Shown here: piece after piece, positions 3,438-14,202 of the stretch
Layout of the letters: the number at the start of each line of letters is the position of its first letter
Numbering within the stretch: position 1 is the first letter of the stretch
From: a virus
DNA length: 45,851 bases
IMG/VR virus record: IMGVR_UViG_3300030331_004592
Location: 1-45,851 of that record
Strand: one strand, 5' to 3'
The notes under the pieces: generated by a model
The model's database searches: none
What the model was told of the DNA's origin: nothing
The model's input: only the letters and a program-made list of their open reading frames with translations
Position numbers and translations under genes: made by a program

Positions 3438-5828
3438 ATGGCAATAAAATCGGAAGACTTATATTTAAGTATACCTAATGCGAGTCCAATATTTTCAAAA
3501 CTGGCAATCTCCAGTCAGTTTAAAGTATCATTAGATCTTGTTCGCACTTCCATAACTGGTAGTAATGTTGGATTATTTCAACATTTAAGTAATTGTGGAA
3601 TATTTAATGACACGACATCTACAAGTCAGAAGTATGATTTTCTTTGTTCATCAGCATCTTTGCCTGGTTCTAACTTTAATATTTCGGAGGAGTTAGGGAG
3701 TCGTCAAGGAATGACAGAGAGATTTGCAACAAGAAGAATATATAACGAATTTGATTTAACTTTTTATATTGATAATGATTATAATGTATTACGTATGCTT
3801 GAAGAGTGGATGAATTTTATTAATCCAGTTTATAATCAGACAAATGGTAGATATGATGGAGCTGAATCAAGTCAATTGGACGCATATCAAGAAAGAAATA
3901 CATATTCAAGATTCAGATACCCAGATGATTATCGAAGAAAAATAAGAATTACTAAATTTGAAAGAGACTTTCTACAAAATCCAAATGATAAGAACAATAC
4001 TTTCAAGAATATGCCACTGTTAACATATCATTTTATTGATACGTTTCCAGTTAATATCAATGCGGTTCCACTGTCTTATGATGGTAGTTCAATTTTACAA
4101 GTAACAGCAGTCTTTACTTACTTGAGACATACGATTGAAAAACATGGTAACGTACAGGCATCCGTTAACGAAAAACTTTCGAACGCACAGTCAACTCAAG
4201 TGAATCCGCTTCGACCAAAAATGATTGGAAATGAAATAAAATCTAGTACAAGTAGTTCTGTTCCAACTCCTCCAGTTGGTTATGTTGCTGGTGAACCATA
4301 CTATGGGCCTTTCCATCTTCACGATATCACAGATAGATTTTTACCTTCAGATATTAGAATTGTAAATGATGATCTTTTTCTTATGGCAGGTGATATTGAT
4401 ACCTATCAGTTAAGTGAGTCTGAAAGGGCAGAATTTCCTGAAATAAAAAATAGTGGTTTGGTAAGAGTATCAGTTGTGCCAAGTGGTGCTGTAAGTATAA
4501 CTGATACAGAAAAAAATAATGGATTTGAGATGCCTAATGGTGAGGATTATTTAAGATTTGGTACCAGAAAAGGAGAGAGATATGTATTATTGAAAAAAAT
4601 AGATGCTCGAAATATTGTAAAATTTAGAGTTTATGCAAAAGTAGGAACTGGTTTAAGATCTCAAGGAGGAAATGGTGGCCATCGTCCAGACAATTCTGGA
4701 TCTGAGGATATTCATTTACAGTATTGGATTGGAGATGATGCAGGTAATCATAATTCTATGGAAAATATACCTCGCAATGAAGTTGATGATCCATTACTTA
4801 CTGAAATTGGAACAGTTATTCCAATATTAAGTTTAGATCCTAGTGATCCAGTTAACACTCCACCTCAAGAAGGTGATTATAATGATGGATCTCTAAAAGT
4901 TTTTGAAATTGATATTCCAGAGGGAGCAAGAAAAGAAAATGTATTCTTCAGAATAAGACAACCAAACGTTAGTACAACTGGTCGTGATAATTATGGTTTC
5001 TTAAAATTTGAATTTGTCGATGCTGTTCCTAAGTCTTCAATAAGAATTGATAATCATAGAAAAGAAACTGGTGACATTATAACTTATTTTAAAGGTGAAG
5101 ATGCAATAGGTGGTCTTGAGAACGGAACTAGGTATTTTACCATAAAAGTAGATGATAATTTAGTTCAACTCGCAACTTCTCTATCTAATGCAAATGCAGG
5201 AATTGCAATTACTTTTACATCAAAAGGATCTGGAAATCATCAACTATATGATAGGACTATTAAAATGGTTGGTGAAAGACATGCTTCTTATCCACATTCA
5301 GTGGTATATGATACGGTCACTGAAAGTTTATCTAATGATATTATTATTCAAACAGGAGAAGTTGATACTTCAGAACAACAAGAGCAACAGCAAGAACAAC
5401 AACAAGAACAACAACAAGAACAACAGCAGGAACAGCAACAAGAACAGCAACAAGAACAACAGCAGGAACAGCAACAGGATACTACACCACCATCAGCACC
5501 AACTAATTTAAATGTTACAACTGGTCAGGCTGATAACACTCCAACAGTCACAGGTAGTGCAGAAGCAAATAGCACAGTTAAATTGTTTAGTGGTTCTCAG
5601 GAGATAGGTAGTACGACAGCAAGTTCTGGTGGATCTTTCTCAATTACTGTTTCGAGTCCTTTATCAGATGGAACTTACATATTTGCATTAACAGCAACTG
5701 ATGCTGCAAATAATGTTTCTAGTTCTTCTACTATTTCACATACAATAAACACCAGTGGTTCTGGTGGTGGAAACGGTGGCGGTGAAAGCGGTGGCGGTGG
5801 CGGTGGTGGATATTACGGAGGTTACTAA
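3438..5828 (+). CDS. 54: gp54-like tube initiator with long accessory C-terminus
   Basis: This 796-residue protein starts with a tail-tube-like domain (about residues 1-240): RRIYNEFDLTFYIDNDYNVL, a helix LEEWMNFINP, IRITKFERDF and HFIDTFPVNI, the pattern of T4 gp19/gp54. T4 gp54 is only about 320 residues. The rest is accessory: a YYGPFHLH motif at about 287-294; about 310 residues of beta-rich insertion; the continuation KMVGERH...YPH at about 609; an (EQQQ) repeat at about 646-680; an Ig-like domain (about 684-770, opening TPPSAPTNL); and a glycine-rich end, GGGGGGGYYGGY. gp5 (11524-14202) has the same YYGPFH/KMVG domain uninterrupted and a similar GGGYGGGY end. The tube part probably starts the tail tube; the C-terminus likely projects outward and may bind surface sugars. 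The gp54 name is by fold and position. Confidence 0.6.
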   Translation: MAIKSEDLYLSIPNASPIFSKLAISSQFKVSLDLVRTSITGSNVGLFQHLSNCGIFNDTTSTSQKYDFLCSSASLPGSNFNISEELGSRQGMTERFATRRIYNEFDLTFYIDNDYNVLRMLEEWMNFINPVYNQTNGRYDGAESSQLDAYQERNTYSRFRYPDDYRRKIRITKFERDFLQNPNDKNNTFKNMPLLTYHFIDTFPVNINAVPLSYDGSSILQVTAVFTYLRHTIEKHGNVQASVNEKLSNAQSTQVNPLRPKMIGNEIKSSTSSSVPTPPVGYVAGEPYYGPFHLHDITDRFLPSDIRIVNDDLFLMAGDIDTYQLSESERAEFPEIKNSGLVRVSVVPSGAVSITDTEKNNGFEMPNGEDYLRFGTRKGERYVLLKKIDARNIVKFRVYAKVGTGLRSQGGNGGHRPDNSGSEDIHLQYWIGDDAGNHNSMENIPRNEVDDPLLTEIGTVIPILSLDPSDPVNTPPQEGDYNDGSLKVFEIDIPEGARKENVFFRIRQPNVSTTGRDNYGFLKFEFVDAVPKSSIRIDNHRKETGDIITYFKGEDAIGGLENGTRYFTIKVDDNLVQLATSLSNANAGIAITFTSKGSGNHQLYDRTIKMVGERHASYPHSVVYDTVTESLSNDIIIQTGEVDTSEQQEQQQEQQQEQQQEQQQEQQQEQQQEQQQEQQQDTTPPSAPTNLNVTTGQADNTPTVTGSAEANSTVKLFSGSQEIGSTTASSGGSFSITVSSPLSDGTYIFALTATDAANNVSSSSTISHTINTSGSGGGNGGGESGGGGGGGYYGGY
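5373..5477 (+). repeat. In-frame 12-nt tandem repeat coding (EQQQ)n
   Basis: One short EQQ unit is followed by eight 12-nt units of the form GAR CAR CAR CAR. CAA and CAG alternate, and a 24-nt double unit recurs with little change. The result is a charged, glutamine-rich linker between the KMVG domain and the Ig-like domain. The 12-nt period means that unit gain or loss keeps the frame, so the linker length could vary between strains. Confidence 0.9.
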
Positions 5829-5861: not shown

Positions 5862-6581
5862 ATGCCTTTACCAAAGATAGCGACCCCGACTTATGAATTG
5901 GTTTTACCATCAACGGGAAAGAAAATTAAATACAGACCATTCCTTGTAAAGGAAGAAAAAATATTAATTCTTGCACTAGAGAGTGAAGATCAAAAACAAA
6001 TTACAGATGCGATCAAATCTACTTTAAAATCTTGTATTCAAACAAGAGGAGTCAAGGTAGAAGATCTCCCAACGTTTGATATTGAATATATCTTTTTAAA
6101 TATACGTGGTAAATCTGTAGGTGAATCATTAGATGTTATGGTAACTTGTCCTGATGATGGTAAAACACAAGTGGAACATAAAATTTATATTGATGAAATT
6201 AAAGTTGAAAAAGATAAAAAACATAACCGTGACATTAAATTAGATAATACTTTAACTTTAAGAATGAAGTATCCATCATTAACTCAGTTTGTTGAAAATA
6301 ATTTCAATCCCTCTGCTGATGATAATCTTGAGAGTTCTATGAACGTAATTGCATCATGTATTGATGTTGTTTTTAATGAAGACGAATCATGGGCCGCAGC
6401 TGACTGCACAAAAAAAGAGTTAAACGATTGGTTAGAAACTTTAAATACAAATCAGTTTAAAGAAATTGAAACTTTCTTTGACACGATGCCAAAATTAACT
6501 CATATAATTAAAGTTACTAATCCAAATACAAAAGTTGAAAGTGAAGTTGTAATGGAGGGTCTGACAAGTTTTTTCGGATAA
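5862..6581 (+). CDS. 26: Baseplate hub/tail assembly protein gp26-like
   Basis: This 239-residue protein matches the T4 baseplate gp26 family (T4 gp26 is 208 residues). The diagnostic part is near the N-terminus: YELVLPSTGKKIKYRPFLV then KEEKILILALES. Next come DLPTFDIEYIFLNIRGKS and a VTCPDDG turn. It is followed by a 58-residue ORF in the -1 frame, and the last sense codons form a T TTT TTC slippery heptamer (6569-6575) with an SD-like GGAGGG 9 nt upstream. This resembles tail assembly chaperones such as lambda G/GT, where a short and a frameshifted long form act before the tape-measure gene. Large genes of tape-measure type do follow. The frameshift is inferred from sequence. Confidence 0.8.
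   Translation: MPLPKIATPTYELVLPSTGKKIKYRPFLVKEEKILILALESEDQKQITDAIKSTLKSCIQTRGVKVEDLPTFDIEYIFLNIRGKSVGESLDVMVTCPDDGKTQVEHKIYIDEIKVEKDKKHNRDIKLDNTLTLRMKYPSLTQFVENNFNPSADDNLESSMNVIASCIDVVFNEDESWAAADCTKKELNDWLETLNTNQFKEIETFFDTMPKLTHIIKVTNPNTKVESEVVMEGLTSFFG
6554..6575 (+). promoter_or_regulatory. Probable programmed -1 ribosomal frameshift site
   Basis: GGAGGG (6554-6559) lies 9 nt before T TTT TTC (6569-6575), which is read in the gp26 frame one codon before GGA TAA. A -1 slip on this heptamer continues as Arg-Ile-Ser-Met into the ORF at 6584-6760 with no stop between, giving a 299-residue fusion. An SD-like sequence about 10 nt upstream is the known stimulator in bacterial dnaX -1 frameshifting. 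GGAGGG is 24 nt from the ATG at 6584, too far to serve it as a ribosome binding site. I did not find a strong downstream hairpin by eye. Confidence 0.65.
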
Positions 6582-6583
6582 GT

Positions 6584-6760
6584 ATGTCTCATATTGATCT
6601 TGAGTCATACTTTAAACTTAATTTTTCTTTGATGCAACACCATAAATACTCTTTGACTGAAATTGAAAACATGATGCCTTGGGAAAGAGATATCTATGTT
6701 TCACTCTTAAATCAGTATATTGAAGAGGAAAATTTAAAAGCACAACAAGCAAGCATGTAA
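6584..6760 (+). CDS. Small tail-assembly-chaperone C-terminal ORF
   Basis: This 58-residue ORF starts two bases after the gp26 stop, in the -1 frame relative to gp26. The motif MPWERDIYVSLLNQYIEEEN is the W-E-R-(D/E)-I-Y pattern typical of short ORFs that follow gp26-like or G-like genes in tailed phages. It probably works as the C-terminal extension of gp26 made by frameshifting (see 6554-6575), and may also start independently, although its own ATG has only a weak GGA upstream. It takes the position that gp51 has in T4 but is far too short to be gp51. Its stop abuts the next ATG at 6761. Confidence 0.7.
   Translation: MSHIDLESYFKLNFSLMQHHKYSLTEIENMMPWERDIYVSLLNQYIEEENLKAQQASM
6641..6648 (+). 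promoter_or_regulatory. Late-promoter-like CATAAATA inside the chaperone ORF
   Basis: This is a NATAAATA core on the plus strand, 113 bp before the ATG at 6761. It could supply extra transcripts of the tape-measure candidates. It lies within a coding sequence where CAT AAA TAC is an ordinary His-Lys-Tyr, so chance is a real possibility. Confidence 0.35.
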
Positions 6761-8281
6761 ATGATTACACCGAATATTGCACCTAGAAGAATAATGGGAT
6801 CTACAGCCGCAGGATTATTTTCTGCTGCGAAGAGTAGTGTTCGGGCGATGGAAAGAACAACAAATGCAATTGTTAAATCACCAGACATAACCAAAGATGA
6901 GAAGTTAGGAATAAATTACATTCAATTTTTTGGATCGAAAAAGAATGCAAAGATATTAAAGAAGAGTTTAAAAACAATAAGAGATTCCTTAGTAGCAACA
7001 TTTTCAATTGCAAAACTGCTAAAATCTGAAATTACTAAAATATCAAAACTTTTTGGATCTGGAAGAAGAAGTATGTTTGGGTCTTTAGTTGGACTTGGTA
7101 TTCGTGGAGTAGGATTTGGAATTAAAACTTTACTATCTTTAGCAAAACTTCTGACAAATCCACTTGTCCTTAAGGTCTTAGGTATTGCTGCAGCAGTTGG
7201 TGGTACTTTTACTTTAGGTAAGTTTTTACTTGATAATCGAGATAGTATTAAAAACTTTATATTCAGTCGTGCAGAAGGTATATATGATGATATACAAAGA
7301 CTTGTTCAAACTATTGTTGAAAGAATTGTAGGAAAAACATTTAAGACTGATGTTTTAACTAATGTTGAATTTGAGAGTCAGAAACAATTAGATGAGGAAT
7401 TTAAAAGACTAATAGAAAAAGAGGATATGAAACCTCAAGATGCAAAAATTCAAGCTACTCTAAATGAAATTCAAAGATTAGGATTAGAAAGAGATAAATT
7501 AAATACTGCTATTGACGAAGGGACTTTTGTTGATGGCATGACCACTAAAGAAATGAGTGATAGACAAAAAGCAATTGAAACTAGAATGTCTGATTTAAGA
7601 ACAGGAGATAACACTTTAGATAAACTACAAAGAGGATTTAAATTATTTGGAATAGCAGGCCCTCAAATACCAGGATCTAGTTTTATTAAAAATCCTGCAA
7701 AACTATTTTTAAGAAAACAAATAAGACAAGCAACTGATGTTGATGGCACGTATTTGCCTGAAGCTTCAGGATACAACGAAAAAAGTTCTGCAGAAAAATT
7801 AAAGTTATTAAAAGCATTAAGAAATAAATTTATAACCACATCTGATCCTGAAGAGATTAAAACCATTTATACTCAAGATTTAATAAGGGGTGACTTAGAA
7901 CCTCATGAGATACCACAAGCCTTAGATATGATTGAATTTGCCAATCAGTTGGATGCGGTGGAAGGAGATCCTGATAAACTAGATGTAAATAAATTTTCCT
8001 TTAGTGATGAAAATACTATTAAACCACTTAGTTTGGAGGATGTAGTCAAAACTATTCCTAAATCACAACGTCCTAGTCAAACTTTTCTTAAAGATATACC
8101 TACATTAGGTGTAACTGGGGGCAATTTTATTAAACCTAAAATTCAGAATGGATCAGCAACTGATCTCTTTCAAAATCCAGTTGCAGCTTCATCTTCCTCC
8201 TCATTAATTCTGCATTCTAATTTTAATTCAGATAATGATTATCGAGATTTTAATGCATCAGAACTTGGTATAACTTTTTAA
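6761..8281 (+). CDS. Putative tail tape-measure/hub protein, first of two
   Basis: This 506-residue protein is basic and largely alpha-helical. A hydrophobic stretch at about residues 105-165 (FGSLVGLGIRGVGFGIKTLL, then LVLKVLGIAAAVGGTFTLG) could cross a membrane. Charged coiled-coil segments follow near 205-290. The C-terminus ends in a Ser run and polar NFNSDNDYRDFN, a tail I associate with tape-measure proteins. It lies directly after the frameshifted chaperone pair, where tape-measure genes almost always lie, and before gp27, as gp29 does in the T4 hub cluster. At about 1.5 angstrom per residue 506 residues would span only about 75 nm, so it may share the job with the next protein. No clear similarity to T4 gp29 is visible by eye. 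Confidence 0.5.
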   Translation: MITPNIAPRRIMGSTAAGLFSAAKSSVRAMERTTNAIVKSPDITKDEKLGINYIQFFGSKKNAKILKKSLKTIRDSLVATFSIAKLLKSEITKISKLFGSGRRSMFGSLVGLGIRGVGFGIKTLLSLAKLLTNPLVLKVLGIAAAVGGTFTLGKFLLDNRDSIKNFIFSRAEGIYDDIQRLVQTIVERIVGKTFKTDVLTNVEFESQKQLDEEFKRLIEKEDMKPQDAKIQATLNEIQRLGLERDKLNTAIDEGTFVDGMTTKEMSDRQKAIETRMSDLRTGDNTLDKLQRGFKLFGIAGPQIPGSSFIKNPAKLFLRKQIRQATDVDGTYLPEASGYNEKSSAEKLKLLKALRNKFITTSDPEEIKTIYTQDLIRGDLEPHEIPQALDMIEFANQLDAVEGDPDKLDVNKFSFSDENTIKPLSLEDVVKTIPKSQRPSQTFLKDIPTLGVTGGNFIKPKIQNGSATDLFQNPVAASSSSSLILHSNFNSDNDYRDFNASELGITF

Positions 8282-11296: not shown

Positions 11297-11524
11297 ATGA
11301 AAACCATAGAAGACCATATTCAACACGACAAGGAACTTCTTGCCGACCCAAATACATCTGAACCAATGAAAAGGCATACGATGGAGGAATTACATGAACT
11401 TGAAGTTTATGCCGATCATCATCACGATGAAATTGAAGCAGGCGATCATCATGATCCAAATGCACTAGAATTATTCTGTGAAATGCATCCTGACGAACCA
11501 GAGTGCCTAGTATATGACGACTAA
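11297..11524 (+). CDS. CP12-like protein
   Basis: This 75-residue acidic, His-rich protein ends in a CP12-type C-terminus: DP..LE.FC, then H-P-D-E-P-E-C, then VYDD, with Cys61 and Cys70 in the C-x8-C spacing of the CP12 redox pair. In cyanobacteria CP12 ties GAPDH and phosphoribulokinase together and slows the Calvin cycle; its C-terminal Cys loop and acidic tail bind GAPDH. The N-terminal Cys pair linked to phosphoribulokinase binding is missing, but MEELHELE resembles the central helix. The length is normal for CP12. It has its own late promoter and one of the best ribosome binding sites in the window, and its stop overlaps the gp5 ATG. Either a metabolic effector or a virion protein using the fold would fit. 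Confidence 0.65.
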   Translation: MKTIEDHIQHDKELLADPNTSEPMKRHTMEELHELEVYADHHHDEIEAGDHHDPNALELFCEMHPDEPECLVYDD

Positions 11525-14202
11525 TGATTGATCAGTTATCAACTCTTGGTAAAGTAAATTCTATTGGAAGAGATGGATTCTTGTGGTGGATTGGACAAGT
11601 TGCTCCACCACAATCTTGGAGAAATGTCAATGCGGCTATTCGAGAGGATGGATCTAAAGCAACAAGAGTTAAAGTTAGAATTGTAGGATATCATCCATTT
11701 GATCCAGAGGGAACTATACTTCCTGATGAAGATTTGCCTTGGGCAGATGTTTTACCAAATCCTTTTTCTGGAAGTGGTCAGGGTGGATTGTCAGAAAATT
11801 TAACTTTAGTTGGTGGTGAAAGAGTTCTCGGTTTCTTTTTAGATGGAGAAGATGCACAGGAACCAGTGGTAATTTCACTGTTTCCCAAATATAACGAAGC
11901 AGAAGATACATATGATGAAAAACAAATTCTCAACAGAAAAAGTAGTGGGTTTGATTCATTCTCAGCATATACAAGAAACGATTCTTCTCAACCCCCTTCT
12001 CCTGGTAATCATCAATTTGGATCTGTAAATCTGGGTTTGTCAGATAAGAAAATCATAGGTATTACAGTAGGACAAAATGATAAAGCAAACATATTTTTAG
12101 AAGATAAAGCAACTACAACAGTTACAGGTTGGACTTCATGTAACGATACTGCTGTCGGGAAAGTTAGTCAAGCAGTCACAGATTTTATTCAAATGCTTCA
12201 GGGACTTGAAAATGCAGGTGATTCTTGGATTGATCCTCTTACTAATACTATAATTGATATGCAGGCAGAACTTGCATTTATAAAAAATGAAGTTGCTGGT
12301 GTTGTAAGAGCATCTTTAAATGAAATGAAAGTTGGTTTAATGAAGCAAGTAAATAAAAAATTTAAAAAATTGATTGGAGATATAAAGAAAAATGATCCAG
12401 ATGGATTGTTTAAAGAAAAAGCAGCAGAAAAAAGCAAAGGAACAATTACAGATTTACTTAACTGTGCTTTTAACGCTGCACTCTTGAAAGCTGGCGAATT
12501 TATTTTAAATATGTTTAAAAACCTTTTAGGAAAGGCATTTAACGCTGCAATTTGTGCGATTGAACAATTCACAGCAGGTATTTTTTCAAAGTTATTTGAT
12601 ACTTTAGAATCAGCACTTGGAACTATCATGAGTGGATTGAATTGGTTAGTAGGTGGATTTGATTCAATTAAAAACACTCTTCGAAGTGTAAGTGGATTAG
12701 CAAGTAAAATATTGGGGTATATTAAGGGATGTAATATAGAGGTATGTGCTAAACCAACAACCTTTGCATCTAATCTTGGTGCAAGATTATCAGCACCTGA
12801 TGATTATGAGGGATTACTTAAAAAAGCAAATGTTTTATCAGGTATTTCTAAAGGTGTAACAGAAGCTGGTCGTGGGGGTATAATTAAAAGAGGTATTAAT
12901 GGTGCAATTGAAAGAATATTTGCACCCTCAGAGGTAAAAGCGTATGCGGATGATAAAGGTATAAGTCTATCAGAGGCAAAAAATATTCTTTCTGGTGGAA
13001 CAAATGAAACTGTAATAGATGGTGATGGTATAGGAGATACTACACTTTACAACGATGATCAGGCAATGAGTGGATTAACTATTTTTGGTGATGGTGATTT
13101 CCTATTTGAAGATTGTAATAGAACAAATGATAACCCACCATCACAACTTGATATTATCCCAAGAAGACCAGGATTTATATATCCAAAATGTTTACCACCA
13201 GATTATCAGGTAATTGGATCTGGAACAGGAGCAGAGTTACTTATCATAGTTGGTAACAGTCGTAGAATATTTTCAGTTGAAGTGATAAATGGTGGAAGTG
13301 GATATGATACAGATACACAAATAACAATTATTGATAATACTGGAAATGGAACTGGTGCAAATGTAAAACCAATTATAAAAGATGGGTCAATTGTAAGTGT
13401 CGTAATTCTGTCAGCTGGATTTGGTTATTGTCTTGGTGGTTCTGGTGGTTCTGATGTGGGAATTTCAACTAATATAACTGGTGAGATTACGGATATATAC
13501 GTATCAAAACCAGGAATTGGATATGATCCTAAAGATACGGTAACTTTTGAAGGAGTTGATGATGGAGTTAATATACCTATTGTTACAACTCCAAGTGGGT
13601 CTATTGCAGCTGTAAACTTCCCTCCAAGTATTCCTAAAGAATTTGAAATTCCCCCAGTTCTTATAGTTAATTCTGTAAATGGAATTGGTGTTGAATTAAT
13701 ACCAATCATGAAAACAAAACCTCAGACTAAGACTGATGTTGGTGCAGAAAGTAGAAAGAGACTTATTGGAATTGAGAGTGTTATTGATTGTATTGGAGAT
13801 AAAAATGAGTTGATTGGATATGTGAATGGTGTTGAATATTATGGGCCTTTCCATGTTCACCAGAGATCCGATGGATCAATCGTGAAGATGGTTGGATCTC
13901 AACACGTAGACTACCCACATGAAATAATTTATGCTACAATAGAGGAAAGTCTTGGAGGATCTCCAGTTGTTTCTCAAACATCTAGTTCTATAACTTCAGA
14001 TTCTACAGAAGTTCCAGAGACAGAAACACCTGTTGATTCAGAACCAACAATTGTAACAGAACAAACTTCTTCAACCTCATCAACTTCTATGGTAGACACT
14101 ACTACTGACACTTCAACTTCCTCTGGTACAAGTGATCCAACTCCACCAAGTAGTCCACCAAGTAGTCCACCTTCAGGTGGTGGATATGGAGGAGGTTATT
14201 AA
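11524..14202 (+). CDS. 5: Baseplate hub OB-fold protein gp5 (no lysozyme domain seen)
   Basis: This 892-residue protein has an N-terminal gp5 OB-fold (about residues 1-125): FLWWIGQVAPPQSW, VRIVGYHPFDP, WADVLPNPFSGSGQGG and GFFLDGEDAQEPVV. That domain sits on the gp27 trimer. T4 gp5 continues with a lysozyme domain, but I see no lysozyme catalytic pattern here. Instead there are long hydrophobic helices (about 220-400), a beta-rich section with GGSGY/PGIGY turns (about 570-700), a YYGPFHVH...KMVGSQH...YPH domain (about 768-812) shared with the gp54-like protein, a Ser/Thr/Pro-rich stretch, and a GGGYGGGY end. The beta-helical needle is on the next gene, whose ATG overlaps this stop (TAATG). 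Confidence 0.7.
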   Translation: MIDQLSTLGKVNSIGRDGFLWWIGQVAPPQSWRNVNAAIREDGSKATRVKVRIVGYHPFDPEGTILPDEDLPWADVLPNPFSGSGQGGLSENLTLVGGERVLGFFLDGEDAQEPVVISLFPKYNEAEDTYDEKQILNRKSSGFDSFSAYTRNDSSQPPSPGNHQFGSVNLGLSDKKIIGITVGQNDKANIFLEDKATTTVTGWTSCNDTAVGKVSQAVTDFIQMLQGLENAGDSWIDPLTNTIIDMQAELAFIKNEVAGVVRASLNEMKVGLMKQVNKKFKKLIGDIKKNDPDGLFKEKAAEKSKGTITDLLNCAFNAALLKAGEFILNMFKNLLGKAFNAAICAIEQFTAGIFSKLFDTLESALGTIMSGLNWLVGGFDSIKNTLRSVSGLASKILGYIKGCNIEVCAKPTTFASNLGARLSAPDDYEGLLKKANVLSGISKGVTEAGRGGIIKRGINGAIERIFAPSEVKAYADDKGISLSEAKNILSGGTNETVIDGDGIGDTTLYNDDQAMSGLTIFGDGDFLFEDCNRTNDNPPSQLDIIPRRPGFIYPKCLPPDYQVIGSGTGAELLIIVGNSRRIFSVEVINGGSGYDTDTQITIIDNTGNGTGANVKPIIKDGSIVSVVILSAGFGYCLGGSGGSDVGISTNITGEITDIYVSKPGIGYDPKDTVTFEGVDDGVNIPIVTTPSGSIAAVNFPPSIPKEFEIPPVLIVNSVNGIGVELIPIMKTKPQTKTDVGAESRKRLIGIESVIDCIGDKNELIGYVNGVEYYGPFHVHQRSDGSIVKMVGSQHVDYPHEIIYATIEESLGGSPVVSQTSSSITSDSTEVPETETPVDSEPTIVTEQTSSTSSTSMVDTTTDTSTSSGTSDPTPPSSPPSSPPSGGGYGGGY

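Follow-up and report, generated by a model that had tools for sequence, protein, structure and literature searches.

The end of gene 26 in the window, a 45,851-nucleotide stretch of DNA from a T4-like marine phage, raises the question of whether the small open reading frame that follows is a gene of its own or the distal part of a longer gp26 product. The original prediction was that a programmed -1 frameshift joins gp26 to this 58-residue frame, and the comparative evidence for it is strong, coming from the slippery site in 255 of 257 related loci, from two flanking signals, and from the fused form represented by T4 gp51. A frameshift in gp26 is very likely real, and a short and a long chaperone made from a single frameshifted gp26 gene is, taken as a whole, the explanation we hold with high confidence on comparative grounds.

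The end of gene 26 and its -1 reading frame

Gene 26 (5862–6581, plus strand) encodes a protein of 239 residues that matches PF12322 (E = 3e-72) and positions 5–232 of 282 in phrog_150 (E = 1.9e-78), and is a candidate short, G-like tail assembly chaperone (TAC-N). Its 3′ end reads ATG GAG GGT CTG ACA AGT TTT TTC GGA TAA. The predicted heptamer T TTT TTC is found in the zero frame exactly at 6569–6575 (plus strand), just before GGA and the TAA stop at 6579–6581, and conforms to the X XXY YYZ pattern expected near the end of the first reading frame in programmed -1 frameshifting. From 34 nt ahead of the gp26 stop, the overlapping -1 frame runs without interruption via FF-R-I-S-M-S-H to a stop at 6758–6760, and its translation bears out the anticipated passage through R-I-S-M into the 58-residue frame. 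As it would be annotated, this frame (ORF2, 'gp51'; 6584–6760, plus strand) starts with an ATG at 6584–6586 that is in the -1 frame relative to the gp26 start at 5862, and it is probably no separate gene. The extension itself, a T-like domain corresponding to the C-terminal domain of gp51, spans 6575–6760 on the same strand and would complete a fusion product of 299 residues. The ORF2 part matches positions 60–115 of 121 in phrog_634, the gp51 family 'baseplate hub assembly catalyst' (E = 4.8e-28), and also the C-terminal end (241–278 of 282) of phrog_150, which indicates that the gp26 family profile already holds the joined form; the translated fusion matches phrog_150 over 5–278 of 282. In S-PM2 the peptide predicted across the FF-R junction is ...LQSFFRISMFYNN.

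Related gp26 loci gathered from IMG/VR and from named isolates provided 257 genes with a visible stop. T TTT TTN is kept in 255 of them, with C as the last base in 244, A in 7, T in 3 and G in 1, and in 254 exactly one codon (3 nt) separates it from the stop, whereas in phiN3 two codons do. The -1 frame is open in all 257 loci and leads into the same domain, that recognized by phrog_634 and phrog_150. When loci were clustered at 70% identity the heptamer was present at the terminal site in 53 of 55 clusters, which share phylogeny and are not independent counts, whereas the 53 cluster representatives have an in-frame TTTTTTN at just 2 of 12,448 other gp26 positions, a disparity that argues against chance. 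The base before TTT is T in 53 of 53 clusters, on AGT, GAT, TCT, AAT, GCT and ACT codons, although the frequency of third-position T for these residues elsewhere in gp26 is 28–75%.

The heptamer-bearing set spans Kyanoviridae, Eurybiavirus, Cr30 (only two gp26 relatives in IMG/VR), pf16, Moby, phiN3, AF3, ACP17, Vibrio V05 and D482, Ahp1 (no gp26 relatives found in IMG/VR) and S13, with Aeh1, phage 65, Ci1 and DLP6 as later additions. It takes in cyanophages and T4-like phages of Caulobacter, Pseudomonas, Rhizobium, Vibrio, Aeromonas and Cronobacter, and the heptamer with its open -1 frame is also present in isolates that are only 25–50% identical. Loss of the heptamer with retention of both reading frames, the pattern that would speak against frameshifting, is limited to 2 of the 257 loci, both Ackermannviridae-like (Vibrio D506, locus L094, near 2585; Serratia 3M, locus L097, near 1992), where the open -1 frame and its domain are kept and A CTT TTC or G GTT TTC replaces the canonical heptamer.

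Signals flanking the heptamer and the translation of ORF2

The Shine-Dalgarno-like element GGAGGG lies inside gp26 at 6554–6559 (plus strand), separated from the heptamer by precisely the 9 nt originally noted (6560–6568). In a position scan of 53 clusters, pairing with the 3′ end of 16S rRNA peaks where the 7-mer ends 8–9 nt ahead of the heptamer (mean -6.0 kcal/mol), compared with about -2.4 kcal/mol for the best secondary peak, further upstream. At this site 29 of 40 clusters use GAG for Glu, against 361 of 1155 Glu codons elsewhere.

A downstream hairpin, which the original prediction missed, pairs A6581–A6591 with U6601–U6611 (both arms on the plus strand) with one U-U mismatch in the window, and its 5′ arm contains the ORF2 ATG. 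In the corresponding scan, the folding z-score of 36-nt windows has its peak at 6 nt past the heptamer (mean -1.75 ± 0.28) and lies at roughly -0.5 to +0.3 once the start is more than about 20 nt distant in either direction. Within the group to which the window belongs, 88% of cells in the stem are paired in register versus 27–45% when the arms are slid, and one stem pair occurs as TA, GC and AT; covariation is limited, with pairs 8–34 and 14–28 exceeding shuffles, as pairs 7–35 and 12–30 do not. A single conserved sequence motif was rejected as a description of the hairpin, because the stems formed at this place are unrelated from one lineage to another, for example GCCCUC/GAGGGC in P-HM1, a 13-bp stem in S-PM2 and a further one in locus L256. 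On the evidence of folding and pairing, the conserved property of the predicted hairpin is its position, not its sequence. Unrelated strong hairpins are located just downstream of the heptamer in loci L256, L085 and L102 (z = -6.4, -5.8 and -3.6, respectively), and these suggest repeated stem replacement under selection for position. Both putative stimulators, the anti-Shine-Dalgarno match and the hairpin, are supported by these comparisons and stand at the right spacing from the heptamer. Across the clusters GGAGGG is conserved as a pairing peak, but in a number of distant relatives, among them Ahp1, S13 and V45v66, this element and the hairpin are weak or missing.

From the signal, the frame, their conservation and the homology of the product we infer slippage itself, at a rate that would leave most ribosomes to terminate at the TAA at 6579 and release the short chaperone. 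In a minority, with the anti-Shine-Dalgarno sequence bound to GGAGGG and the hairpin at 6581–6611 ahead, both Phe tRNAs would slip from TTT TTC to TTT TTT and enter the -1 frame, and the product would be the 299-residue long form with a helical C-terminal domain.

Among the alternatives, the one that fares best is that ORF2 encodes a separate small protein ('gp51') translated by termination-reinitiation at the ATG at 6584, with no fusion. This ATG follows the gp26 stop by 2 nt in the window, as it does in most close relatives (2–3 nt in many), and GenBank lists gp51 as a gene of its own in S-PM2, phiN3 and others. However, GGAGGG ends 24 nt before the ATG, too distant for normal initiation, and the AUG itself sits inside the hairpin stem. 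Moreover, in 55 loci none of the first 18 extension codons is ATG, GTG or TTG even though this stretch is conserved, and so ordinary initiation cannot yield a full-length free T-like domain in these phages, which include S-RIM2-like and Prochlorococcus-phage-type cyanophages, S13 and a Desulfovibrio phage. Reinitiation also leaves T TTT TTN in 255 of 257 loci unexplained and is at odds with T4 gp51 being a true fusion; we consider it improbable as a full account, although some free ORF2 product could arise in this way where an ATG trails the stop, the window included. Slippage by RNA polymerase on the run of six or seven T, as opposed to ribosomal frameshifting, would provide a -1 product as well, but six T are short for polymerase slippage, the run keeps a constant codon phase, and the flanking anti-Shine-Dalgarno and hairpin signals belong to translation, leaving it a very small probability. 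A third alternative does without recoding and ascribes the retention of Phe-Phe and the T run solely to the gp26 protein sequence or to AT-rich codon bias. It accommodates the conserved Phe-Phe and the commoner use of TTT for Phe (373 vs 230) but is already contradicted by the nearly fixed order of TTT then TTC, by the T that nearly always precedes on Ser, Asp, Asn, Ala and Thr codons (28–75% elsewhere), and by the open -1 frame with its conserved domain everywhere, and its probability is negligible.

In sum, the frameshifted short and long chaperone pair is favored by NNT before TTT in every cluster, by the anti-Shine-Dalgarno peak and the position-specific hairpin, by the startless loci, by T4 gp51 as a natural single-frame long form, and by the tape-measure-like gene that comes next.

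Proposed short and long chaperones in T4 and its relatives

The gene directly downstream (6761–8281, plus strand) encodes a 506-residue tape-measure-like protein with a partial match to phrog_1686, tail length tape measure protein (E = 1.1e-7). Placement directly upstream of a tape measure gene and the existence of short and long forms that share their N-terminal part are features of a tail assembly chaperone pair, the two forms arising by the predicted frameshift here and from the paralogous genes 26 and 51 in T4. The proposal that this locus follows the logic of lambda G/GT gains strong comparative support. On homology, position and analogy with lambda, we infer a chaperone function for gp26 and the fusion. 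By that analogy, the tape measure protein, product of the adjacent gene, would be coated by the G-like part, and subunits of the tail tube or baseplate hub would be brought in by the T-like part. A fold search with the gp26 model returned as its top PDB match the HK97 tail assembly chaperone (HK97 gp13, 2ob9), a weak hit (E = 0.79, probability 0.33); the equivalent search of the PDB with the gp51 model found nothing, a profile search of PDB sequences with gp26 and gp51 gave no meaningful match, and an NCBIfam search gave none. GenBank MN648195 labels both gp26 and gp51 'tape measure protein assembly chaperone', and T4 gp51 is required yet absent from particles (PMC3004832).

Elsewhere in the window, a 796-residue tail tube protein homologue (3438–5828) has a long C-terminal extension, unusual for a tail tube protein. 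The extension includes the motifs YYGPFH and KMVGERH..YPHSVVY, a Gln-rich 12/36-bp tandem repeat at 5374–5476, a domain of the bacterial Ig-like type and a tail rich in Gly. A gp5-like hub protein (11524–14202) ends with these same motifs, in the form YYGPFHxH and KMVGxxHxxYPHxxxY, and a Gly-Tyr-rich tail. The C-terminal likeness between the two (BLASTP E = 4e-7) suggests a module common to both proteins.

T4 genes 26 and 51 are divergent and lie on opposite strands, an arrangement common to Aes012 and Konradin, and so a gp26/gp51 frameshift cannot exist in T4. Nonetheless, T4 gp51 aligns with the window fusion along its length (hhalign, 16–290/304 vs 6–251/253 columns, 99.2%, E = 5.5e-20), while T4 gp26 aligns with the first part of the fusion and, by profile comparison, with gp51 columns 8–203 (98.8%, E = 6e-17). 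PF12322 matches the window gp26, T4 gp26 and residues 1–201 of T4 gp51, and in predicted models of the window gp26 and a T4-type gp51 the helices and strands follow one another similarly, with three extra helices at the end of gp51. T4 and its close relatives therefore appear from these profile matches to hold the same two forms as two genes, 26 (short) and 51 (long), with gp51 a full-length, in-frame fused paralogue of gp26. The suggestion that the T4 gp26/gp51 step resembles G/GT thus stands for the short and long pair but not for frameshifting.

In an unrooted comparison, the parsimonious reading would be that the frameshift is ancestral and that a duplication near T4 replaced it. We lean, with some reserve, toward a fuller version in which one frameshifted gene supplied the chaperone of the ancestral T4-type tail and was duplicated in T4 and its near relatives, with one copy fixed in-frame as gp51. 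In this version the cyanophage signal would be three-part, and its hairpin would bury the ORF2 start, leaving the fusion as the sole form of the T-like domain. Sullivan et al. 2010 (PMC3037559) described cyanophage gp51 as about 20% of the usual length, without the first ~200 residues, and gp51 as missing in Aeh1. On the frameshift reading, cyanophage gp51 looks about 80% truncated because the missing residues come from gp26 via the slip. Aeh1, which carries T TTT TTC and, after the gp26 stop at 2277, a -1 extension with the gp51 C-terminal domain, would have seemed to lack gp51 because the extension is unannotated.

Frameshifting would help to explain why T4 carries two related genes, and recasts gp26 and gp51, two poorly understood T4 hub 'catalysts', as a G/GT pair that can be tested. 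Several hundred T4-like phage genomes would have their annotation corrected, and these phages offer a natural comparison of frameshifting and gene duplication as means of setting the ratio of two chaperone forms.

Relation to known frameshifting systems

The slip signal of the window phage is unusually complete. The E. coli dnaX frameshift signal has a Shine-Dalgarno-like element about 10 nt upstream, the heptamer A AAA AAG and a downstream hairpin; the layout in the window resembles it, and the differences are the heptamer and the cellular nature of the dnaX gene.

The premise that such a frameshift was undescribed for a T4-type gp26 probably does not hold. Vladimirov, Gautam & Davidson (2022, Virology 566:9-15) had already identified the tail assembly chaperones of T4-like phages, in a study that PMC10885494 cites for one short gene and one long fused gene in T4-like phages and PMC12846349 for known poly-T slip signals in their TAC-N genes; its title stresses a mechanism other than frameshifting. 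As represented in these citing papers, the T4-like chaperone frameshift is known in kind, and the central claim here is probably not new. No description of the three-part signal or the sequestered AUG was found in the literature searched, which took in few subscription papers; this is weak evidence of novelty. As far as the citing papers report, the TAC-N/TAC-NC pairs of Vladimirov et al. share with the window a gp26-type short and a gp51-type long chaperone and poly-T slip sites. The frameshift of Pakpunavirus and Vandenendeviridae (PMC12846349) likewise has a conserved -1 site with a poly-T motif at the end of TAC-N, although the motif is GTTTTT and the phage family another.

Lambda G/GT and homologous chaperone frameshifts (Levin 1993; Xu 2004; reviewed in PMC5009743) have in common with the window a -1 slip at the end of a short chaperone gene, a long form with a small C-terminal domain, and a location just upstream of the tape measure gene. 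The window differs in that T TTT TTC stands one codon from the stop between an upstream Shine-Dalgarno-like and a downstream hairpin signal, that the tail is of the contractile T4 type, and that the protein belongs to PF12322 with no significant fold match to HK97 gp13. T4 itself matches the window in the products, gp51 aligning along the whole fusion and gp26 along its first part, and differs in encoding them as two divergent genes where no frameshift is possible.
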